Source: a virus. Taken from it: DNA of 37,139 bases. Under the pieces are notes generated by a model. The model was not told where the DNA came from, did not search any database, and saw only the letters and a list, made by a program, of their open reading frames with translations. This document shows positions 2,935-11,806 of the stretch, piece after piece. The stretch's first letter is position 1, and each line of letters opens with the position of its first letter. The position numbers and the translations under genes were made by a program. The stretch is from IMG/VR virus record IMGVR_UViG_3300037337_000109, positions 1 through 37,139 of that record. One strand, 5' to 3'.

Positions 2935-4656
2935 TTATTTGGAAATGCGAGTCAAGCCCAAGGTCGCGAAATCAAAGTCTGTCACGATGCCTTCTGAGAA
3001 GCCCGGGGTGCCCTGCACGATCGACAGACGCTGCACGAAGTGACCCTTCAGGTGGTTGTTGTGATCGTCTGCCATGTCCACGATCAGCGCGACGTTGGGG
3101 CCTGTCTTCTTTTCGCGCAAGCCCCGGCCGATTCGCTGGCGCGTGGCAACCTCTGCCTTGCCCCCGCCGGCCAGCACGATCATGCCCACGCTAGGTACGT
3201 CCACACCCACGTCGAGAATGGTTGAGCCGATCAGGGCGTCGATCGCACCGGTGCCCAGGGCCTTCAGGGTGCGGGTGCGCTCTGCCTGGTTGTCGTCGCC
3301 GTAGATGAAGGCGGCTCTTGCGCCGGCGCGGGTGAGCATGGTCAGCAAAATTTCGCCGTGGGCCTTGTGCTGCACCAAGATCATCGCGTTCAGGCCATAC
3401 CGCATCGCGCGCAGTACTTCCGCACAGATTGCCCTGTTGCGGTATTCGTTGTTGACGATGCCGTGCTCGTAGGCGGGCTGCCAGGGCGTTGAGCGCGCCA
3501 GGCGCTTGGGCTTGTGCTGCACCGGCATGTTGACGTACTTGAAGTAAGGCCGCGCGAGAATGCCGCGCTCGATCAGCAGCTCTTCACTGATGCGAACCGC
3601 GACCGGGCCGCAGCATGCCAAAAGTCGCATGTTGGCCGCCTCGTCGTCCTTCATGAACGGGGTGGCTGTGAGAGCCATGCGGTAGTGGGCGTTCTTGCAC
3701 GCCGACATGACGATGTAGAAGCTGTCGCCCGAAACTTCGTGCGCCTCTTCGACAATCACCAGCTCGAACTTCGCCAGAATCTCGATCGTTGCCACGCGCA
3801 AGCGCTCGTGACGCTCCACCTTCGCTGTGATCTTGCCTAGCTCCAGCTGTAGGTTGCCGTTTTCGCGGTCGAGCTTGTCGGTCAGCGCCAGCAGCTCGTT
3901 GCCGATCTCAAGGGCCGGGGTCTTTTTCTTCACTAGCACCTTGCGCTCAGCATCAACCTTGCGCGAAATCGCAGCATCCCGACGGTCTTTGAGCGCTTGC
4001 ATCTCGCCCTTGACCGACTTGACCTCAAGCCGCGCGGCAAGCGTCTGCACCATCGCAACCGTGTACTTTGACAAGCGTCGACCCTCGCTGCCGTCTTCCC
4101 GGGTGTAGGCAATGCCCCACTCGCCGTCGCCCAGAATCGCGCAGGGCGCGCCGGTCATCTTCTCGACTGCCTCGTGCATCTGGTACATGAGAATGCCGCG
4201 CGTGGTCAGAAAGAGGGCAGGGCGACCGATACGCTTCATCGCCATGCGAGCCAGGCGGGACTTGCCCCCACCGGTCGCTACTTGCACCGTGATGTTCTTG
4301 TGCCGCACCAGGGTCTCGACCGCCGCGGGCTGGTAGTCATACCGCTCAGAGAAGCCAAAGTCGTCCACCACCGGGTTGGGCTCACCCAAGGGCTCTGGCG
4401 CGGGCTTGCCCACCACCTGCACCTGGTGGCCCATCTTCTTCAGCCCCTGGGTCACCAGTCGCACAAAACCCGTGGGGAACGTGCCCTTGTCGTAAGAGAA
4501 AAACGAGCTGTTGCCGTCCCAGCCCCCGCTCTTGAACGCCGTCATGTGCTCAGACCCATCGACCTTGTACGACAAGAGCCGGTGAATCTCGTTGCGCGCC
4601 TCGTTCGGGGCGTTGAGCACTTTGGCGGTGACTGCGTTGAAAGCGATCGAGATCAT
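2935..4656 (-). CDS. UvsW-like SF2 DNA helicase
   Basis: This 573-residue protein is an ATP-driven DNA helicase/translocase of superfamily 2, close in layout to phage T4 UvsW, which remodels branched DNA and R-loops. A WDG-containing N-terminal module (about residues 35-85) resembles the UvsW DNA-binding wing. The Q-motif-like YQP is at 108-110 and Walker A, ATGGGKS, at 127-133. A charged probable coiled coil (about 215-290) is inserted before motif II, which reads EEAH (303-306) instead of DEAH. Motif III, TATPF, is at 330-334 and motif VI, QRIGRGLR, at 507-514. It is the first gene of the leftward operon, reading out of a divergent control region that carries a dyad motif. A role in phage DNA replication, recombination or repair is likely. 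Family assignment is firm; the exact substrate is not known. Confidence 0.9.
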   Translation of the reverse strand: MISIAFNAVTAKVLNAPNEARNEIHRLLSYKVDGSEHMTAFKSGGWDGNSSFFSYDKGTFPTGFVRLVTQGLKKMGHQVQVVGKPAPEPLGEPNPVVDDFGFSERYDYQPAAVETLVRHKNITVQVATGGGKSRLARMAMKRIGRPALFLTTRGILMYQMHEAVEKMTGAPCAILGDGEWGIAYTREDGSEGRRLSKYTVAMVQTLAARLEVKSVKGEMQALKDRRDAAISRKVDAERKVLVKKKTPALEIGNELLALTDKLDRENGNLQLELGKITAKVERHERLRVATIEILAKFELVIVEEAHEVSGDSFYIVMSACKNAHYRMALTATPFMKDDEAANMRLLACCGPVAVRISEELLIERGILARPYFKYVNMPVQHKPKRLARSTPWQPAYEHGIVNNEYRNRAICAEVLRAMRYGLNAMILVQHKAHGEILLTMLTRAGARAAFIYGDDNQAERTRTLKALGTGAIDALIGSTILDVGVDVPSVGMIVLAGGGKAEVATRQRIGRGLREKKTGPNVALIVDMADDHNNHLKGHFVQRLSIVQGTPGFSEGIVTDFDFATLGLTRISK

Positions 4657-4744: not shown

Positions 4745-5410
4745 TTGACAAAACAAATCGACATTCAACACCTGGCGCCAGCCCGCCTGATGCCCAACCC
4801 GTGGAACTCCAACCGAGTTGGTCCCGAGATGGAAGAGCGTCTTCGCGCCAGCATCGCTGAGTTCGGGCTTTACAAGCCGATCGTGGTGCGCGAGCTGATT
4901 GGAGACACCTTTGAGATTCTGGGTGGCGAGCACCGCTGGCGCGTCGCCTGCGACATGGGCCTGCAGACAGTGCCGGTTGTCAGCGTGGGCGTTATCACCG
5001 ACAAGAAGGCGAAATTGCTGGGTCTGGCCGACAACGGCCAATATGGCGAAGACGACAGCCTGATGCTGGCTGCGATTCTGCGCGACATTGGCCAAGAGGA
5101 TGTCTCGACCTACCTGCCCTACACCGACGAAGACATGGCCGGCATGTTTGCAGCCGCCGACGTTGACTTGGACTCCCTGGGCTTTGACGACGAAGAAATG
5201 AATGCTGGCACGCCAATGGCAGACAGTGTGCGCCCCGGCGTCACTCACGAGCTGATGCGCTTCAAGGTTCCGATCGAAGACCGTGAGCGTGTTCAAAAGC
5301 TGATCGAGAAAGTCATCGCCGACAACGGCCTGAAGGCCGAGACCGACTCAATGGTTGCCGCCGGCATGGCCCTGGTGGTGATCGCCAACGCCGCGAGAGA
5401 GTCGCTGTGA
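4745..5410 (+). CDS. ParB-like N-terminal domain protein 1
   Basis: This 221-residue protein has a ParB/sulfiredoxin-type fold in its N-terminal half. The signature GGEHRWR at residues 60-66 follows a PNPWN segment near 18-22, typical of phage ParB-like proteins. This fold can bind or cleave DNA and, in some members, hydrolyse nucleotides. The C-terminal 120 residues are acidic and helical, with no motif I can name. The start is a TTG at 4745; I accept it because the conserved PNPWN segment lies close behind it and AGAGAA is upstream. The next in-frame ATG would truncate the domain. It opens the rightward operon and its stop overlaps the next start. With the ABC ATPase and GNAT downstream, a part in DNA modification is more likely than plasmid-style partition: no ParA is seen. 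Confidence 0.8.
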   Translation: MTKQIDIQHLAPARLMPNPWNSNRVGPEMEERLRASIAEFGLYKPIVVRELIGDTFEILGGEHRWRVACDMGLQTVPVVSVGVITDKKAKLLGLADNGQYGEDDSLMLAAILRDIGQEDVSTYLPYTDEDMAGMFAAADVDLDSLGFDDEEMNAGTPMADSVRPGVTHELMRFKVPIEDRERVQKLIEKVIADNGLKAETDSMVAAGMALVVIANAARESL

Positions 5411-5493
5411 CGCCTTACCACCGCGTAATTCCGATTCGGGTCGAGCAGGGCGACCTTGAAGAGATCGAAGAAAACGCCGCGGTGACCGCGTGA
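5407..5493 (+). CDS. Candidate 28-residue coupling peptide
   Basis: A GTG at 5407 overlaps the parB stop as GTGA. The 28-codon frame ends at 5493 in another GTGA overlap with the next gene. It fills the gap exactly and would keep ribosomes moving through the operon. The peptide is acidic in its second half and matches nothing I know. It may be a real small protein or only a coupling reading frame. Confidence 0.4.
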   Translation: MTPYHRVIPIRVEQGDLEEIEENAAVTA

Positions 5494-5690
5494 GCACCGC
5501 GTCGGCATTGATCGCAGTTGTACGCGACCACATGGGCCGCAAGTCCACCTGGACCTTTAGCCGACCTGTTGGCTACTCAGACGTGGTTGTTATTGATAGC
5601 GTTTGCAAGTTGGTCACCAAGTCGATCAAAAAGTACACCAATCACCCACCCAGCGTAATTCTGGTGGCAATTAACGGAGGCAAATCATGA
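5490..5690 (+). CDS. Unknown small protein of ParB-ABC operon
   Basis: I do not recognise this 66-residue protein. It starts with GTG in a GTGA overlap with the 28-codon frame before it and ends in an ATGA overlap with the next gene. It looks alpha/beta, with a hydrophobic strand near residues 30-36 and another near 55-61, and is mildly basic. The tight packing on both sides is the main evidence that it is real. Confidence 0.5.
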   Translation: MSTASALIAVVRDHMGRKSTWTFSRPVGYSDVVVIDSVCKLVTKSIKKYTNHPPSVILVAINGGKS

Positions 5691-5917
5691 GCCTGACACA
5701 AGCAACCCCACAAACGCCTGAAGAGCAAGCCGAGGTCGACTACGGCGACCACGTCATCTGGCGCCTAGTCAATTCGACCATCACCAGCTTCGGCTCTAAC
5801 GAAGATGGCGAGATTTTTCTCTCCACAGTCAAAGACGGCGTGAACTGCGCCTTCGTGATTGGAAAAGACGAGCACGGCGACTTGGCGATCTTTGAGATTG
5901 AGAAGGAATCAAAGTGA
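5687..5917 (+). CDS. Unknown small acidic protein
   Basis: I do not recognise this 76-residue protein. The ATG at 5687 has a strong GGAGG ribosome site and overlaps the previous stop (ATGA). The protein is acidic and appears largely beta-stranded from residue 20, with several Gly-Glu/Asp turns. Its end overlaps the GTG of the second ParB gene. A small acidic protein between two ParB-like DNA proteins could be an adaptor or an inhibitor of DNA binding; this is a guess from position. Confidence 0.6.
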   Translation: MSLTQATPQTPEEQAEVDYGDHVIWRLVNSTITSFGSNEDGEIFLSTVKDGVNCAFVIGKDEHGDLAIFEIEKESK

Positions 5918-6558
5918 GCGACAAAAAACTGAAAACCGAAACTTGGCCACTTGCCAACATCACACCCTATGAGCTGAACGTCAAGAAGCACGACAAGGAA
6001 CAAGTTGCGCGCATTGCCGCTTCGATTTTGAAGAGCGGTTTTGACCAGCCAATCGTGGTAGACAAGAACGGCGTGATTATCAAGGGTCACGGTCGTCGCC
6101 TGGCACTCATTGAACTGGGTCGCACCGAAGCGCCGGTGATTATTCGTGATGATTTGAGTGCGGCGCAAGTTCGCGCCGCACGTCTGGCAGATAACCGTGT
6201 CGCCATTGGCGACATCGACACGGAAATGCTCAAAGTTGAGCTGGAAGACCTTGATTTCGATCTTCTGGAAGGTATTTTTGACGAAAAAGAACTCAATTTC
6301 ATAGTTGCCGACCTGGGTGACATGAATTCTGACTCTTTCGTCACCGACATGAACGCCGTTATCGCTGATCAAAAGACTGACATGACCGAGCGCGTGGCTA
6401 TTGCTGAAGGTGCCCGGGTGCCGCTGGCCAAAGCATTTGGCTTCAAAGACATCGCTGCGCGCGACCAGATTCACATCACCAAACTCATGGGCAAGGCGGA
6501 AAACGTCACTGGCTTGACTGGCGAAGAAGCCCTCACTACCTACATCGCCGCACTATGA
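5914..6558 (+). CDS. ParB-like N-terminal domain protein 2
   Basis: This 214-residue protein carries a second ParB-like domain. A GHGRR signature lies near residues 58-62, and LADNR near residue 90 is typical of phage and methylase-linked ParB-like proteins. It is not a close copy of the first ParB-like gene, which has GGEHRWR, so the two probably have different tasks. The C-terminal half is acidic. The start is GTG at 5914 with AAGGA upstream, overlapping the previous stop, and its end overlaps the ABC ATPase start by 4 bp. That direct coupling to the ATPase suggests a shared complex. Members of this fold may be nucleases or DNA-recognition subunits; I cannot tell which here. Confidence 0.8.
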   Translation: MSDKKLKTETWPLANITPYELNVKKHDKEQVARIAASILKSGFDQPIVVDKNGVIIKGHGRRLALIELGRTEAPVIIRDDLSAAQVRAARLADNRVAIGDIDTEMLKVELEDLDFDLLEGIFDEKELNFIVADLGDMNSDSFVTDMNAVIADQKTDMTERVAIAEGARVPLAKAFGFKDIAARDQIHITKLMGKAENVTGLTGEEALTTYIAAL

Positions 6559-7265
6559 GCGCCTACCTAATTGACAAGCGCTTCACCACGCGGGTGCAAC
6601 GATCCGACCGGGTGCTTGAGGTCGCCGAGGCGTTTGGCATCGGTCTGGAAGACAAAGAATTCGTTGTCTTTGACAACCTAACCTTGAATGTCAACCCCGG
6701 CGACGTGGTCTACATCACCGGTCAGTCGGGCGGGGGCAAGTCGGTGCTGCTGCGCGAGCTGTCTGCGCAGATGGCGGCCGAGGGGGCGCAGGTGGCCAAC
6801 CTGGACGATGTCGCCTTCACCGACATGCCCCTGATCAACCAGATTGGCACCGACACCAACGACGCGATCCGTCTGCTGGGCCTGGCCGGCATCAACGACG
6901 CCTACCTCTGGGTGCGCAAGCCCGCCGAGCTTTCGGACGGCCAGCGCTACCGCTTTCGCTTGGCCAAGGTGATCGAGACCGGGGCGATGGTCTGGGTCGC
7001 CGACGAGTTTCTGGCCGTGCTGGACCGCACCAGCGCGAAGGTGATTGCCTTCTCGCTCCAGAAGGTCGCGCGGCGCGCGGGCGCCACCGTGATCGTTGCC
7101 ACCACCCACACCGACATGGTGGCCGACCTGTGCCCCGATCTGTTCATCGAGAAGCGCTACCGCGAGAAGCTGCGCATCGAAGTCTTTGCCGACGCCCGTG
7201 CGCGCGCCAAAGAGAAAACCTGCACCCGTGACGAACTCAACGAACTTCTTTTAAAGGCCCTGTGA
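6555..7265 (+). CDS. ABC-type ATPase linked to ParB and GNAT
   Basis: This 236-residue protein is a soluble ABC ATPase without membrane segments. Walker A, GQSGGGKS, is at residues 56-63 and the LSDGQ signature at 126-130. Walker B ends in ADE at 149-151 and the switch histidine is H185. The N-terminal lead-in (VLEVAEAFGI, residues 20-29) resembles the ABC half of known bacterial ABC-GNAT proteins rather than transporter ATPases. It overlaps the second ParB gene, and a Mom-like GNAT lies four genes downstream. I infer an ATP-driven step in handling or scanning DNA, or in energising a base-modification complex. Biochemical function is unproven, but ATPase assignment is firm. A shared cassette promoter upstream of 4745 probably drives it. 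Confidence 0.9.
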   Translation: MSAYLIDKRFTTRVQRSDRVLEVAEAFGIGLEDKEFVVFDNLTLNVNPGDVVYITGQSGGGKSVLLRELSAQMAAEGAQVANLDDVAFTDMPLINQIGTDTNDAIRLLGLAGINDAYLWVRKPAELSDGQRYRFRLAKVIETGAMVWVADEFLAVLDRTSAKVIAFSLQKVARRAGATVIVATTHTDMVADLCPDLFIEKRYREKLRIEVFADARARAKEKTCTRDELNELLLKAL

Positions 7266-7266
7266 A

Positions 7267-7614
7267 ATGAAAAAATCAACCATCGCGCGCGTTTGCCACG
7301 AAGTCAACCGCGCGTACTGCCAAGCCCTTGGCGATATGAGCCAGCCCTCTTGGGAAGACGCACCTCAATGGCAGCGCGACTCCGCAATGCTGGGCGTCAC
7401 ACTGCACAGCGAAAACGATGTTGGGCCGCAGGCCAGTCACGAAAGCTGGATGGCGCAAAAAGTCGCCGAGGGCTGGGTGTATGGCGAGGTCAAGAACCCC
7501 GACCTCAAAGAGCACCCGTGCATGGTGCCGTTCTCTGAACTGCCCGCGTCGCAACAAGCGAAAGACTTCATCTTTCGGGCCGTTGTTCATGCGCTGAGCG
7601 AGAAGACCGAATGA
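7267..7614 (+). CDS. RyR-domain protein
   Basis: This 115-residue protein is almost entirely one RyR (ryanodine receptor repeat) domain. The conserved opening HEVNRAYC is at residues 11-18, followed by GD, a W-x-DAP-type stretch near 29-33, SHESW near 57-61, GWVYG near 69-73, a K-x-HPC stretch near 81-85 and a Leu-Pro/Gln stretch near 91-95. In animals this domain is part of calcium-release channels; phage and bacterial single-domain versions are widespread but poorly understood. It begins one base after the ABC ATPase ends and overlaps the next gene. The surrounding cassette suggests a ligand-binding or sensor role in phage-host conflict; that is inference. Confidence 0.85.
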   Translation: MKKSTIARVCHEVNRAYCQALGDMSQPSWEDAPQWQRDSAMLGVTLHSENDVGPQASHESWMAQKVAEGWVYGEVKNPDLKEHPCMVPFSELPASQQAKDFIFRAVVHALSEKTE

Positions 7615-7850
7615 GCGCCAAGACCTTTGGCCAAAAGGCCGTCGACAACTACGACCCGTGCCCCATTGCTGCAAACGCGGCATCGACATGCAAGGCAATT
7701 TTTGCCCAGGCGATCGACCAACTTGCCGCCGAGCGCGCATCGGCCGCATTGGCCGGCGACTCTGAAAAAGCCCGCCTGGTCAGCATCGCCATCACCGAAA
7801 CCCAGGGTGCCCAGATGTGGGCGATTAAAGCCGTCACTTGGAAATCTTGA
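7611..7850 (+). CDS. Small helical protein, Acb2/Tad1-hairpin-like
   Basis: This 79-residue protein looks like two or three helices. Its C-terminal helix has the pattern R..S.A.T..Q.AQMWA.KA (about residues 54-74). This resembles the small phage proteins of the Acb2/Tad1 hairpin group (DUF7681), which in known members trap cyclic-nucleotide immune signals of CBASS or Thoeris. The N-terminal NYDPCP (residues 13-18) also fits the short aromatic-Pro lead-in of such proteins. The match is by eye only and the binding residues cannot be verified. It overlaps both neighbours (ATGA and TGATG), so it is surely translated with the cassette. A generic small helical protein is the alternative. Confidence 0.5.
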   Translation: MSAKTFGQKAVDNYDPCPIAANAASTCKAIFAQAIDQLAAERASAALAGDSEKARLVSIAITETQGAQMWAIKAVTWKS

Positions 7851-8146
7851 TGACCTACGAAGAACTGCTGGCCGGCGGCCAGAGCCACCTGGTGATGTTC
7901 TACGGCACCGCATGCGGCCCGTGCGCGCGCCTGAAGCCCCGCCTGGCCGCTCTGGCGGCTCGCAACGAGGTTTCTTACCACCAGATCAACGTCGCCTCGG
8001 ACATGGACGCCGTGCGCGCCCTGAAGCTGCGCAGCGTGCCCAGCCTGGTGCTGGTGCGGGCCGGGCGGGGTGAGCATGTCCACACCGGTGACGCCACCGA
8101 CGAGCAGATCGAGCAGATTCTGCGCGAGAAGGCGTTTCTGACATGA
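7850..8146 (+). CDS. Thioredoxin-like protein
   Basis: This 98-residue protein is a single thioredoxin domain. The active site CGPC is at residues 22-25, preceded by the usual Phe-Tyr-Gly/Ala strand, and the cis-proline SVPS lies near residues 64-67. It should reduce disulfides in the cytoplasm; there is no signal peptide. The frame is open from a TTG at 7838, but the ATG at 7850, overlapping the preceding stop as TGATG, is the better start and leaves a normal-length domain. It sits directly before the Mom-like GNAT, coupled by ATGA. It may supply electrons to a modification enzyme or keep it or a cysteine-bearing partner reduced. Phage thioredoxins also serve ribonucleotide reductases, but none is seen here. 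Confidence 0.9.
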   Translation: MTYEELLAGGQSHLVMFYGTACGPCARLKPRLAALAARNEVSYHQINVASDMDAVRALKLRSVPSLVLVRAGRGEHVHTGDATDEQIEQILREKAFLT

Positions 8147-9102
8147 GTGCCGCGCGCCACGAGCTGTGGACCCCCACGGTGGTCGAGCGCCGGGCTCGAC
8201 CACCCGCCGGCGTGAGTCTGAGCTTGCTCAAGCACATCTACGTCGAGTTTGGCACCAAGGCCGACTGGGACGCGCTCAGCATGCTGCACTACAAGGGCCA
8301 CACGTTGGCCGCCGGGAGTCGCTACGTGCGCTGCATGCTGGCCGAGCCGGGGTGCTTGCCCACGCTGATTGGAATCATGGTGTTTGCCTGCCCGCGGCCC
8401 CTGGACGGCGGGCGCAACGACGTGTTCCCCAAACTCAGGCCGAACGCAAATGGGCGCGACAACCGCATGATCAACCAGGCGAGGTTGAGATGGATCAACA
8501 GCAACATGACGTGGAACAACCGCACCGTGCTGGACACCATGTACCGCTCGGCCGGCATCGCCTACCGGTTCAAGAACCTGGCATACCGCCTCTACTGCGC
8601 CAAATACAAGCTGCGCTTTGTCGAGTCGCGCAGCTCGATGGGTCGCTTCAACCCATTCTCCATCAAGACCGGGATGGACTTCACCAAACCCCGACCCGCC
8701 GCGGCCTTATCAGACGGGCTGAAGTTCTTCGCTGGCCACTTTACAAGCTCTCCGCACGACAGCGTGGCCATTATGGAAGAGCTAGTGGCATTGCCACCTG
8801 GTGAGCGCGCACACATGGAACGCAAGCTGCGCGAGTTCTACTACAAGTGGTCCAGTGTGGAAAAGTCGGGCGACAAGCGCGACCTGGGCATGACCCGGGT
8901 GAACGAGCTGCCGATCGACTATGTTCTGAAGCAAGTCATGCAGCTGGTGTTTTCCGCCACTGTCTACTGGATTTGGAAAGTCGTCGACGAGCCGGCCACA
9001 CTTGGCACATCGCTACCGCTGAGCGCCTTTGACGACCAAGCGCCCCTAGCGCCGCTTGCGCACGATTGGACGGGCTGGACGCCCGCTCGGGTGCCCGCAT
9101 GA
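8143..9102 (+). CDS. Mom-like GNAT acyltransferase, predicted DNA modification
   Basis: This 319-residue protein shows a GNAT-type core resembling phage Mu Mom, which modifies adenine in phage DNA to block restriction. Visible landmarks are HY at 49-50 in a Mom-like context, a hydrophobic strand LIGIMVFACP (75-84), and an R-x-x-G-x-A acyl-CoA-loop pattern RSAGIA at 135-140. A Ser/Arg-rich motif ending in GRFNPF follows at 161-172. The C-terminal 140 residues are an added, mostly helical region. The start overlaps the thioredoxin stop (ATGA). The ABC ATPase, two ParB-like proteins and this GNAT together form the ABC-ParB-GNAT association seen in other phages. The fold is likely; the modified base and acyl donor are unknown, and Mom catalytic residues cannot be confirmed by eye. 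Confidence 0.65.
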   Translation: MSAARHELWTPTVVERRARPPAGVSLSLLKHIYVEFGTKADWDALSMLHYKGHTLAAGSRYVRCMLAEPGCLPTLIGIMVFACPRPLDGGRNDVFPKLRPNANGRDNRMINQARLRWINSNMTWNNRTVLDTMYRSAGIAYRFKNLAYRLYCAKYKLRFVESRSSMGRFNPFSIKTGMDFTKPRPAAALSDGLKFFAGHFTSSPHDSVAIMEELVALPPGERAHMERKLREFYYKWSSVEKSGDKRDLGMTRVNELPIDYVLKQVMQLVFSATVYWIWKVVDEPATLGTSLPLSAFDDQAPLAPLAHDWTGWTPARVPA

Positions 9103-9515
9103 AGGGTGTGACCGCGTACCAGCTTGAAATTCTGGTGCTTGTGAACCAGGGCGGGCCGGACGGTGCGCTGGACCTTGACCAAATGCTCACGCGACTGAGC
9201 TGGGCGCCGACAAAGGAAAGCGCACAGTTTCCTGTGCGGGCGTTGGTCAAAAAGGGCCTGCTGAAGAAAAGCGAAGAGCTGCTGTTTCGTCGCGGCCGGC
9301 GCCGGGCCAGCTACAGCTTGACCCCCGAGGGCCTGCAGCTACTGGACCCAAGACTCACACCCCTGACGACAAAGACGACTTCGCCGCCTATACCCGGTCT
9401 TCCCGAGCCGGAGCTTGATGTAGCCCTTTCCTCAGAAGTCACTGATGAGCCTCTTTTTCTAGAAGACTCAGACCTTGAGTGGGGCGTTTTTGACGAGCCG
9501 GAGCTTTCCGTTTGA
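9099..9515 (+). CDS. Winged-helix DNA-binding protein
   Basis: This 138-residue protein has an N-terminal winged helix (about residues 4-82). Helix-rich YQLEILVLV opens it, the recognition area is around 35-50, and a basic wing with RRGRRR lies near residues 64-71. Y.LTPEG, typical of MarR/PadR-like proteins, closes the fold. The C-terminal 55 residues are acidic and Pro-rich, probably disordered. The frame extends upstream to 9066, but the ATG at 9099 overlaps the GNAT stop (ATGA) and begins just before the domain. It is the last gene of the cassette and the only clear sequence-specific DNA-binding regulator in the window. That makes it a candidate for recognising the dyad motif family; this is inference. 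Confidence 0.75.
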   Translation: MKGVTAYQLEILVLVNQGGPDGALDLDQMLTRLSWAPTKESAQFPVRALVKKGLLKKSEELLFRRGRRRASYSLTPEGLQLLDPRLTPLTTKTTSPPIPGLPEPELDVALSSEVTDEPLFLEDSDLEWGVFDEPELSV

Positions 9516-9830
9516 GGCATTTTTCTCGTTCCGGGGCTGGTTTTGGCAAGATTTCATAATTTCACGTAAGTCATTGATTTATAAGAAAATTTTAGGGTGT
9601 TAGCGATTTGGGGGTCTTCCCTATATATAGAACTTCAAAAAGAAGAAGAAGAATACAAATACAGATGGGGGACGACACGATCGCTACCCCGGACCTCACA
9701 TGAAAAATAAGTCAACGCTGAAACACCAACGACGCGATTCGGTTTACAATCTCACCCAGAAGCAGAAGAAATTCTCCTCTCGGGTGAGCCTCGCGCTCAC
9801 CCATTTTTTTTGCCTGAGTGAGAACCCCCA
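9516..9830 (+). promoter_or_regulatory. Gene-poor region before terS
   Basis: No well-supported gene lies in these 315 bp. From left to right it holds a TAAGTCA half-site (9567-9573), an AT-rich stretch with a possible promoter (TTAGCG at 9600-9605, 16 bp, TATATA at 9622-9627), and a purine-rich AAGAAGAAGAAG run near 9640. A second TAAGTCA half-site with a decayed partner (9708-9725) and a strong terminator (9782-9811) follow. A 44-codon frame (9700-9834) overlaps the terS start but lacks a good ribosome site. The transcript between promoter and terminator would be about 170-180 nt. Position just before terS also allows a cos or pac packaging site. Confidence 0.5.
9782..9811 (+). terminator. 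Rho-independent terminator before terS
   Basis: GGGTGAGC (9782-9789) pairs perfectly with GCTCACCC (9795-9802) around CTCGC, followed by A and eight T (9804-9811). This is one of the clearest terminators in the window. It would end read-through from the ParB-ABC-GNAT cassette, or a short transcript begun near 9630, 20 bp before the terS start. Confidence 0.9.
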
Positions 9831-10487
9831 ATGAGCGGCACCACCTCACCAGTCAAAAAGCCCGCCGCGAAGAAGAGCGCCGGGCGCAGCGTCGGCTCAC
9901 GCAGTCTCACCATGACCGAGCGCGCAGAAGCCGCGGCCCTGTGGCGCTCCGGCTCAGTCACCCTAGAAGACCTTGCCAAGAAGTTCAAGAAACGACCCGA
10001 GACTTTCTCCCGGCTCTTCACCCGCATGGGTGTGGAGAAGGGCAGCACGGCGGCCAGCGCGATGCGCAAGGCAGAGCTGGCGATTGCTTCTCGGATCGTA
10101 AACCAGGCAGAGCTCACGTTGGAGCGAATTACCCAGGTGAAGGACTCGCACTTCGCCATGAGTCGTTCGATTGCCCTAATGGCCTTCAAAGACCTTCAGC
10201 AAGCCAAGAGGGCAGAGCTGGACATCGGCAAGCTCAAAGACATCATGGCGGTCTACAAGATGGCCTCTGAGGTGGTGGGCAACTCGCGCAAGGAGCTTTT
10301 TCAGATTCTGGACGTTGAGGGGCACAAGGCCGACTCGCTTCTTGATGACTTGCCCGACCTCACGGTGCGCGAACTGACCCAGGACGAAGTAGAAGGGCTC
10401 AGAAACGCGCCGGAAGATGATCTTGATACCTCGACAGGTGCGGGCATGCTGGACCTCGACGACAGCGATTTTGAGAGCGTCGGGTGA
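9831..10487 (+). CDS. Terminase small subunit
   Basis: This 218-residue protein is the likely DNA-recognition subunit of the packaging motor. A basic N-terminus (residues 9-24) leads into a helix-turn-helix (about 28-67, with LTMTERAEAAALW and TLEDLAKKF). Central helices (about 70-160) suit ring assembly, and an acidic tail follows (170-218). Its position directly before and overlapping the large terminase (GTGA) makes the assignment strong despite low sequence conservation of this family. The ATG at 9831 follows a terminator by 20 bp, so mRNA must start very close by or anti-termination must act. Confidence 0.8.
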   Translation: MSGTTSPVKKPAAKKSAGRSVGSRSLTMTERAEAAALWRSGSVTLEDLAKKFKKRPETFSRLFTRMGVEKGSTAASAMRKAELAIASRIVNQAELTLERITQVKDSHFAMSRSIALMAFKDLQQAKRAELDIGKLKDIMAVYKMASEVVGNSRKELFQILDVEGHKADSLLDDLPDLTVRELTQDEVEGLRNAPEDDLDTSTGAGMLDLDDSDFESVG

Positions 10488-11806
10488 GCGCGTCAGAACC
10501 CATCTTGATCCCAACTGAAGTCGTAGCGGCAGTCAGAGATTCCATTGACTCGATCAGTGAGCAGTTTCGACCGCCGGTGAATACGCTGTTTCTGCACAAG
10601 AAACAGATGGAGGTTTACCGCAGCACCTCGCGCTTTAAGGTTGTGGTGGCCGGCAGAAGGTGGGGCAAAACGCAGCTGGCCAAAGTCAGCATGATCAAGT
10701 TCGCGCGCAAGAAGCGCCGTCTGGTCTGGTACGTGGCGCCTTCTTACCGCATGGCCAAGCAGATCATGTGGCCCGAGCTGGTCGAGGCGATACCGCGCTC
10801 GTGGGTCAGGAAGTACAACGAGACGATCCTCACCATCACCCTGGTCAACGGCACCCGGATTGAGCTCAAGGGCGCAGACAACCCCGATTCGCTGCGCGGC
10901 GTGGGCATTCACTACCTCGTCATGGACGAGGTGCAGGACATCGACCCGGACGCCTGGAAGAAGGTGCTGCGCCCCACGCTGGCATCCACCGGTGGGCACG
11001 CGCTGTTTATCGGCACGCCCAAGGCGTACAACTTCTTGCACGAGCTGTGGAGCAACGGTCAGAAGTCCAAGAACAAAGCCTGGGCAAGCTGGCAGTTCCC
11101 CACTATCAGCAGCCCTTTCATTCCGCTCGAAGAAATCGAAGCCGCTCGAAACGACATGGATGAAAAGTCGTTCAATCAAGAATTCGGTGCCTCGTTTGAG
11201 ACCATGAGCGGGCGCGTCTACTACCCCTTCGATCGCAAGGTGCATGCCAACAAGGAGCTGACGTTCAACCCGGCACTGCCGATCTGGGTCGGGCAAGACT
11301 TCAACATCGACCCCATGAGTTCGGTGGTGTTTCAGCACCAGCGCAACGGCGAGCTGTGGGCCGTCGATGAAATTTGCCTGCCCAACTCCAACACCCAGGA
11401 GCTGTGCGACGAGCTGGAGCGCCGGTACTGGCGCTACCTCGACCAGATCATCATCTATCCCGACCCGGCCGGCGCCTACCGCGGGCACCAGCGCGGCGAG
11501 TCCGATCTGGACATCTTTCGCGAGCGCGGCTTCAAAAAGCAGAAGTACCGCAGAAAGCACCCACCGGTGGCCGATCGGGTCAACGCCGTCAACCGCATGC
11601 TGCTGTCGGCCAACGGGCAGATCAGGCTGCGCATTGACCCCCGCTGCAAGAAGTTCATCGAGGCGCTGGAGCAAACGCTCTACAAGCCCGGTGGTCGCGA
11701 GGTGGACAAGAAGGCCGGTGTTGAGCACGCCGCTGACGCTGGTGGCTATTGCATTGAGCTGGAGTTCCCGATTCGCAAGGTGGAGATTTTGGGCGTGTCC
11801 ATTTAA
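10484..11806 (+). CDS. Terminase large subunit
   Basis: This 440-residue protein is the packaging ATPase-nuclease. The adenine-binding region is followed by Walker A, GRRWGKT, at residues 57-63. Walker B with catalytic Glu, LVMDE, is at 145-149, and the coupling motif region is near 169-178. The RNase H-like nuclease domain begins about residue 265, with metal-binding candidates D272 (GQDFN), D327 (YPDPAG) and D418 (HAADAGGY). Length and order fit a typical TerL. The start is GTG at 10484 overlapping the terS stop. It drives DNA into the procapsid through the portal and cuts concatemers. Confidence 0.95.
   Translation: MSASEPILIPTEVVAAVRDSIDSISEQFRPPVNTLFLHKKQMEVYRSTSRFKVVVAGRRWGKTQLAKVSMIKFARKKRRLVWYVAPSYRMAKQIMWPELVEAIPRSWVRKYNETILTITLVNGTRIELKGADNPDSLRGVGIHYLVMDEVQDIDPDAWKKVLRPTLASTGGHALFIGTPKAYNFLHELWSNGQKSKNKAWASWQFPTISSPFIPLEEIEAARNDMDEKSFNQEFGASFETMSGRVYYPFDRKVHANKELTFNPALPIWVGQDFNIDPMSSVVFQHQRNGELWAVDEICLPNSNTQELCDELERRYWRYLDQIIIYPDPAGAYRGHQRGESDLDIFRERGFKKQKYRRKHPPVADRVNAVNRMLLSANGQIRLRIDPRCKKFIEALEQTLYKPGGREVDKKAGVEHAADAGGYCIELEFPIRKVEILGVSI

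Follow-up and report, generated by a model that had tools for sequence, protein, structure and literature searches.

Does the run of eleven frames at positions 4745–9515 of the virus record IMGVR_UViG_3300037337_000109 encode a system that modifies phage DNA, one that counters host immunity, or both? The window is the whole stretch of DNA analysed, which makes up the full 37,139 bases of an IMG/VR record, and all positions are positions in this window unless a survey locus is named. A first-pass annotation had proposed that two ParB-like proteins, an ABC ATPase, a RyR-domain protein, an Acb2-like protein, a thioredoxin, a Mom-like GNAT and a winged-helix protein form a combined DNA-hypermodification and counter-defence unit. 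Comparison with related loci divides the run into a core of two ParB/Srx proteins (ParB1 and ParB2), an ABC ATPase, a GNAT and a small winged-helix-like protein, and remaining genes that are interchangeable cargo. The best explanation, in which we place slightly more belief than doubt, is that the core acylates a base of the phage DNA late, with nucleotide-signal sponges carried as cargo in the same transcription unit.

The core is defined by its gene order. Thirty phage records came from a tblastn search with the GNAT candidate, while alignment-based scans yielded 80 loci on viral contigs and another 18 that are bacterial or archaeal; 109 loci were taken into the gene-order analysis. The exact order divergent helicase–ParB1–ParB2–ABC–GNAT–winged helix–TerS–TerL (TerS and TerL being the small and large terminases) is found in 74 of the 109, and nearly all other loci are partial, truncated stretches of it. 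In two archaeal loci the ABC gene alone was picked up, and mechanical assignment of open reading frames is the probable source of three odd orders or a missing call. The layout recurs in phages nickie, SSU5 and Cyrano and in Rhizobium and Klebsiella phages. Gene order, together with homologues of the cassette and terminase region, suggests that the window represents part of a phage of roughly 100–120 kb whose kin include Nickievirus and the phage-plasmids of the SSU5 type.

Spacing sets the core genes apart from what lies between them. The winged-helix-like gene follows GNAT in 106 loci at a median of –3 bp, and TerS and TerL are coupled likewise; the gaps between ParB1 and ParB2, ParB2 and ABC, and ABC and GNAT have medians of 275–362 bp and are filled with variable genes. 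Because the cassette of Escherichia phage Cyrano consists of ParB, ParB, ABC, GNAT and winged helix with zero inserts, we take ParB–ParB–ABC–GNAT–winged helix to be the minimal set. The first-pass annotation had suggested searching other phages for ParB–ABC–GNAT and checking homologous operons for unrelated neighbours: the gene set recurs in many phages, and nearly all loci of sufficient length keep the core order with its helicase and terminase neighbours. Its view of the second ParB and the thioredoxin as unusual additions did not hold, since two ParB genes are the rule in the surveyed loci and thioredoxin is a routine occupant of the ABC–GNAT slot, present there in 60.

Two further observations concern the spread of the cassette. 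A single IMG/VR record of 215,656 bases carries two non-identical copies (L026 and L049) about 107 kb apart, which suggests that two related phage genomes were joined in one contig. Two Bathyarchaeota contigs (L110 and L111) encode a partial GNAT relative, 28–29% identical, with an ABC match, possibly a cellular branch of the GNAT family.

Within the window, the eleven plus-strand frames are packed as tightly as first described, with overlaps of 1–4 bp. Eight junctions are 4-bp overlaps (5407, 5490, 5687, 5914, 6555, 7611, 8143 and 9099), that at 7850 is a 1-bp overlap (TGATG) if the frame starts at ATG, or one of 13 bp if it starts at the TTG at 7838, and the frame at 7267 is preceded by a 1-bp gap. 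Nine of the eleven frames have conserved relatives; the 28-aa and 66-aa frames (5407–5493 and 5490–5690) have none in the surveyed loci, and packing is their support.

The GNAT protein (8143–9102) is the putative catalytic centre of the core. It has no Pfam or NCBIfam match, and a direct PDB sequence search returned nothing convincing. Its PHROG family, phrog_886, is labelled 'ABC transporter ATP-binding subunit', and some deposited records call its relatives 'ABC-type ATPase fused to a predicted acyltransferase'; despite these labels, no ABC domain was found in it. By its AlphaFold (AF2) model, built from 79 sequences with a mean predicted local distance difference test (pLDDT) score of 91.1, the protein is a member of the GNAT superfamily. 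A Foldseek search of 350,542 PDB chains placed two chains of phage Mu Mom (8bv8) first (E 2.3e-4 and 9.7e-4; template-modelling (TM) score 0.50 by target), with ordinary GNATs ranking next. VIA-align superimposed the model on Mom with Z 11.8 over 170 residues at 4.3 Å, tied with other GNATs, and the top rows listed from the 613 PDB chains at Z ≥ 8 are all GNATs.

Residue conservation was read per gene, from 82 loci for ParB1, 90 for ParB2, 100 for ABC and 107 sequences for GNAT. In the GNAT, the acyl-CoA pyrophosphate loop R135-S-A-G138-I-A140 is a canonical RxxGxA, and D41, W42, H49, Y50, K51, R127, D131, R135 and G138 are invariant; the invariance of R135, G138 and the HYK motif argues that catalysis is under selection. 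By profile, the protein belongs with ABC–GNAT fusion proteins of unrelated phages and not with the Mom family: hhalign joins it to these fusions with a probability of 94.7% (E 6e-8 and 7e-8), and the alignment matches the HYK/HYL motif and the RxV..xGxG loop. Structure prediction and profile together thus bear out the GNAT identity first proposed for this frame.

Both ParB proteins show the G-x-x-R-type loop expected of the ParB/Srx superfamily: G-G-x-H-R (GGEHR) at residues 60–64 of ParB1, where G60, G61, H63 and R64 are kept at 96–100%, and GHGR at residues 58–61 of ParB2, kept at 96%. ParB2 also matches phrog_498 'DNA methyltransferase' (E 7.5e-38), and fusions in which DNA methyltransferases of phages carry a ParB domain have domains close to those of this cassette. 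The ABC ATPase is intact, with Walker A at 56–63, an LSDGQ signature at 126, Walker B ADE at 149 and H-loop His185, motifs that are conserved across its loci; in those surveyed loci that extend to it, the ABC gene lies upstream of the GNAT. PADLOC and NCBIfam scans returned no specific defence or modification system, and matches to mad3 and mad8 were taken as generic ABC similarity.

The last core gene (9099–9515) has no Pfam match, and its family, phrog_900, is one of unknown function. Otherwise it shows only a weak MarR-family match, so that the winged-helix label originally given to it is plausible. Its 48-aa C-terminal tail (9372–9512) extends beyond the 88-position phrog_900 profile and holds 13 D/E residues against a single K/R; the tail may mimic DNA or serve for interactions.

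ABC ATPase and GNAT, which the first-pass annotation noted as known to occur together, recur here as a gene set with ParB and elsewhere as fusion proteins. According to a passage of PMC7824862 that cites Iyer et al. (2013), GNATs coupled to ABC ATPases, for example in phage pT24, are predicted to acylate a DNA base, and the pT24 ABC protein matches that of the window. In unrelated phages, often close to terminase genes, a ParB-like gene stands before an ABC–GNAT fusion: in Pasteurella phage Pmp13 (directly before TerS–TerL), in Leptospira phages LE3 and LE4 (before TerL), in Gordonia phage Sisko (one gene separating fusion and terminase) and in phage Jace; in Jace and P12024S the set occurs without a directly adjacent terminase. 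In Streptococcus Javan420, a ParB-domain gene and an ABC gene precede TerL. Microbacterium phage Appa shows that Mom itself can have a ParB partner: there (L117, 3469–4621), a true Mom gene (PF25680) overlaps with the gene for a ParB-like protein. ParB-like proteins of the ParB/Srx-family ATPase type also accompany DNA modification as DpdB and DndB (PMC12839542, PMC10853773).

Set beside these systems, the cassette shares ABC and GNAT with the ABC–GNAT systems, and its GNAT profile matches the fusions, several of which have a ParB partner gene. It differs in its separate ABC and GNAT genes, its two ParB genes, its fixed winged-helix-like gene and its gaps, which hold thioredoxin, metalloprotease-like, zinc-ribbon and sponge genes. 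The core is best seen as a split variant of the predicted ABC–GNAT DNA-acylation systems and was in general form already predicted. With phage Mu Mom, its top Foldseek match, the GNAT has in common the fold and a phage origin, and a ParB gene adjoins Mom in Appa; however, by motif comparison its canonical RxxGxA loop stands at the place of the S124 region of Mom, profile-level homology is absent, and the cassette has an ABC partner and no Com gene. In Dpd and Dnd, as here, a ParB/Srx-family protein accompanies modification, and Dnd also uses an ABC ATPase, whereas the cassette has a GNAT in place of TGT or sulfur-transfer genes. A paper on nicked DNA (PMC11780129) was set aside as an account of this cassette, as it concerns other phages.

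The slots between the core genes hold a varied cargo, which we extracted, clustered and scanned against Pfam, counting loci with profiles built during the analysis. A Cys4 zinc-ribbon protein of roughly 60 aa is found in 60 loci, in the ParB1–ParB2 slot only (for example L026, 4959–5228). It has four conserved cysteines in two pairs and is zinc-ribbon-like; Mu Com, the controller of mom, is likewise a small zinc-binding protein. An HExxH metalloprotease-like protein of roughly 125 aa is found in 35 loci, in the ParB2–ABC slot only (for example L063, 5530–5907); a Pfam scan of one representative gave no match. GIY-YIG nuclease, GDSL-like lipase, N4 gp49-like and membrane proteins also occur in slots.

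Among the nucleotide-signal families, Tad2 is found in 20 loci and in two slots, and Acb2 in 11 loci, nine of them complete; the hairpin protein and the RyR protein occur in two loci each, the window and one other. Slot members match the solved structures of Acb2 (8h2j, E 1.8e-23) and SptTad2 (8wjd, E 1.9e-20). At least one such family is present in 32 of 82 complete cassettes, and the window is the only complete cassette with two. The counter-defence side of the first-pass annotation holds, in that Tad2, Acb2 and RyR genes cluster in the slots. The RyR and Acb2-like genes are indeed encoded inside the unit, but as accessories: 50 of the 82 complete cassettes carry no recognised sponge, and a place for RyR and hairpin in the fixed core is ruled out, each occurring in just one other locus.

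Is this clustering more than tolerance of insertions? An alternative compatible with the acylation account of the core holds that sponges are present merely because the gaps accept genes, with no functional or timing link to the core. The many unrelated slot genes and the sponge-free cassettes speak for it, as does the placement of Acb2/Tad1-hairpin domain genes, counted like those of Tad2 in 40 long records: five of 12 lie between ParB1 and GNAT and seven elsewhere in the genome. Tad2 behaves otherwise. All 14 of its genes over the Pfam cutoff lie in this interval, in two different slots, although it spans roughly 3 kb, or 1.4–7% (about 3%) of each record. A naive product of probabilities would be about 10^-20; because the loci are related, a lineage count is safer, and Tad2 in three of ten GNAT lineages (60% identity) or five of 25 (70%), at about 3% each, gives roughly 10^-5 to 10^-8. 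Four nucleotide-signal-binding families also converge on the interval, a pattern that amounts to enrichment and not to cooperation. Since many unrelated genes are there too, we regard the slots as a hotspot for accessory genes at large, in which sponges are enriched but not the sole occupants, and hold the absence of any link to the core to be evenly poised between true and false.

The RyR protein (7267–7614) matches the RyDEP structure 35TM (E 6.2e-10), and its residues H58, W61, H83 and D100 align with RyDEP H75, W78, H100 and D117, so that all four are kept. Its best phage relatives are 60–78% identical, and it is 55% identical to a RyR protein of a Pectobacterium phage; the sponge homologue H7 of the RyDEP paper is also Pectobacterium phage-derived (PMC13232231). 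In that study one protein cleaves, and six of eight other tested homologues bind while none cleaves (PMC13232231). Because only one studied RyDEP protein cleaves, binding is the safer expectation here. The window protein resembles RyDEP (PMC13232231, PDB 35TM) in its PF02026 domain and the four ligand or catalytic residues; it differs in lying outside any NARP1 operon. Elsewhere in 40 related genomes, a search for a RyR gene gave one sub-threshold match only. The conserved residues make the protein a strong candidate for an anti-Thoeris factor, which would act on 2'/3'cADPR. The RyR protein of Pectobacterium phage CB1 (L126, 1273–1821) and Tad2 proteins of the ParB1–ParB2 slot (L026, L031, L040 and others) apparently have a common N-terminal domain with the motifs PMTxGxYN..., EGYLVEY and SWSPKDVF, which may be an adaptor swapped between different sponges.

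The hairpin protein (7611–7850) belongs to a family with over 400 viral-contig relatives and a strongly conserved helix, SIAITEAQ..QMWAVKA. The best PDB match of the family profile is T4 Vs.4 (E 0.095, a weak match); Vs.4 is Acb2 (PMC12657218). Its model is a two-helix hairpin (pLDDT 86). A direct PDB sequence search with the protein gave nothing convincing, and Acb2 is absent from its 49 Foldseek matches at E ≤ 10. It resembles the Acb2/Vs.4 and Tad1 hairpin in its helical hairpin, its relation to PF24729 and a SIAxTxxQxxMWAxKA helix like that of Vs.4, but lacks the N-terminal KIxGYRDL segment of Acb2 and is just 16–19% identical; it is possibly a cyclic-nucleotide sponge. In Rhizobium phages W03, W05 and W08, a PF24729 hairpin gene lies at a common position about 4.7–5 kb before the cassette, beyond the helicase, besides the Tad2 gene inside.

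Table 1. Features of the cassette and its flanks in the window.
Feature	Position	Strand	Evidence and remarks
UvsW-like SF2 helicase	2935..4656	-	PF04851/PF00271/PF21241; divergent upstream neighbour, position kept in loci holding it
ParB1, ParB/Srx-type N-terminal domain	4745..5410	+	TTG start; PF02195 E 1.6e-12, 47.7 bits, over Pfam cutoff; phrog_723 E 7e-52
28-aa frame	5407..5493	+	4-bp overlaps, the sole backing for gene status
66-aa frame, ParB1–ParB2 slot	5490..5690	+	Packing
76-aa accessory protein, ParB1–ParB2 slot	5687..5917	+	Relative in L019 (cluster 26)
ParB2, ParB/Srx-type	5914..6558	+	phrog_930 'ParB-like' E 1.5e-78; PF02195 22.3 bits, under Pfam cutoff
ABC ATPase, one nucleotide-binding domain	6555..7265	+	PF00005 (ABC_tran) E 1e-11, 46 bits; phrog_293
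RyR (R12) domain protein, RyDEP-like anti-Thoeris candidate	7267..7614	+	PF02026 E 6.9e-11, 42.7 bits
Helical-hairpin protein, Acb2/Tad1-hairpin type (weak candidate sponge)	7611..7850	+	PF24729 E 5.9e-6, 26.8 bits
Thioredoxin, CGPC active site at residue 22	7850..8146	+	PF00085 E 2.1e-12, 47.4 bits
GNAT acyltransferase	8143..9102	+	phrog_886 E 1.7e-86; structure model; profile comparison
Small winged-helix-like protein	9099..9515	+	phrog_900 E 1.1e-16; weak MarR match
Gap between cassette and TerS	9516..9830	+	Likely regulatory (inferred); median 320 bp across loci
Small terminase (TerS) candidate	9831..10487	+	Position; conservation in 103 loci
Large terminase (TerL)	10484..11806	+	PF03237/PF17289

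How might such a cassette work? We favour DNA as the substrate because of the ParB partners, the ABC–GNAT fusions and the literature prediction for ABC–GNATs. In a first layer, the GNAT would bind acyl-CoA and move an acyl group to the exocyclic amine of a phage DNA base, which by analogy with Mom would be adenine; plausibly it works like Mom. An ABC ATPase dimer, through ATP-driven clamping or scanning of DNA, would bring the GNAT to its target, and the two ParB/Srx proteins may be nucleotide-hydrolysing, DNA-associated partners like DpdB and DndB that help to target it. Since the unit lies directly before TerS–TerL, we infer that the DNA would be marked late, at about the time of packaging, and the restriction enzymes of the next host would then meet modified DNA. 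In a second layer, the small cargo genes dropped into the core gaps would act during infection: the RyR protein would bind or cleave 2'/3'cADPR, silencing Thoeris, while the hairpin protein possibly sequesters a cyclic nucleotide. The two layers may cooperate, which would make the cassette the integrated multi-layer system that was first suggested.

Several points weigh against this account. To our knowledge, none of the phages that carry this cassette has a known modified base, and our literature search found neither an experiment on the cassette nor a report of such a base. The source virus is uncultivated, and the window is only a fragment of its genome. Proteins, RNA and small molecules are substrates of GNATs too, and the top structural matches of this one include ordinary N-acetyltransferases at the same Z as Mom. 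Against Mom itself, hhalign gave a probability of 0.5% with two Mom sequences and 1.0% with 28, and there is no PF25680 match; strict membership of the Mom family is ruled out by this comparison. The epithet 'Mom-like' in the first-pass annotation agrees with the Foldseek ranking, in which Mom comes first in the PDB, less clearly with the Z scores, where Mom ties with generic GNATs, and not with the profile; adenine as the target is a guess because the GNAT lies outside the Mom family by profile. The 'Acb2-like' label is borderline: the hairpin protein resembles PF24729 (Acb2_Tad1_hairpin), and its orthologue in L019 exceeds the cutoff of 27 with 33 bits, but its own score is 26.8, and VIA ranks Acb2 (8h2j) only 22nd against its model (Z 5.1).

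In a second alternative, the target of the core GNAT is a protein of the virion, terminase or host, acetylated during late assembly while ABC and ParB act as partners on the DNA, and the sponges are unrelated cargo. In its favour, proteins or amines are the substrates of most GNATs with solved structures close to this one, and the core is locked to TerS–TerL. Yet Foldseek ranks a DNA-modifying GNAT first, ParB domains of this type recur with DNA-modifying enzymes (methyltransferase fusions, Appa Mom, DpdB/DndB), and Jace and P12024S have the set with no terminase directly beside it; we consider a protein target unlikely. Distinctly improbable, in our view, is a phage-plasmid DNA-handling module for partition, nicking or the start of packaging, in which the GNAT merely regulates: the SSU5-type relatives are phage-plasmids, there are two ParB-like proteins as well as helicase and terminase neighbours, and ParB/Srx proteins can nick DNA according to work cited in PMC12839542, but Rhizobium relatives have a separate ParA gene across the helicase, outside the operon, smaller phages from unrelated lineages have ParB/ABC–GNAT sets too, and the R135, G138 and HYK residues of the GNAT do not vary. 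A chance cluster of unrelated frames is ruled out by synteny across about 100 loci.

The cassette with its putative DNA-acylating core is a widespread, uncharacterised candidate for DNA modification. A broader reading, which we find rather more doubtful than likely, is that of an anti-defence island: a ParB–ParB–ABC–GNAT base-acylation machine timed to packaging, whose gaps are docking sites for swapped sponges (Tad2, Acb2, RyR, hairpin). If true, a single transcription unit would serve two ends, the protection of DNA in the next host and the silencing of signalling immunity in the current one, and the zinc-ribbon, HExxH and small slot proteins would be candidate new anti-defence factors. Because known sponges (Tad2, Acb2, RyR) sit repeatedly in the slots, the uncharacterised genes found there are good counter-defence candidates. 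If the core acylates DNA, it would represent an undescribed modification across a family of phages and phage-plasmids whose hosts include Escherichia, Klebsiella, Salmonella, Pseudomonas syringae and Rhizobium, and which could be tested in isolated relatives. With ParB partners so widely spread, the part that ParB/Srx proteins play in DNA modification, long unclear, would moreover become open to testing.

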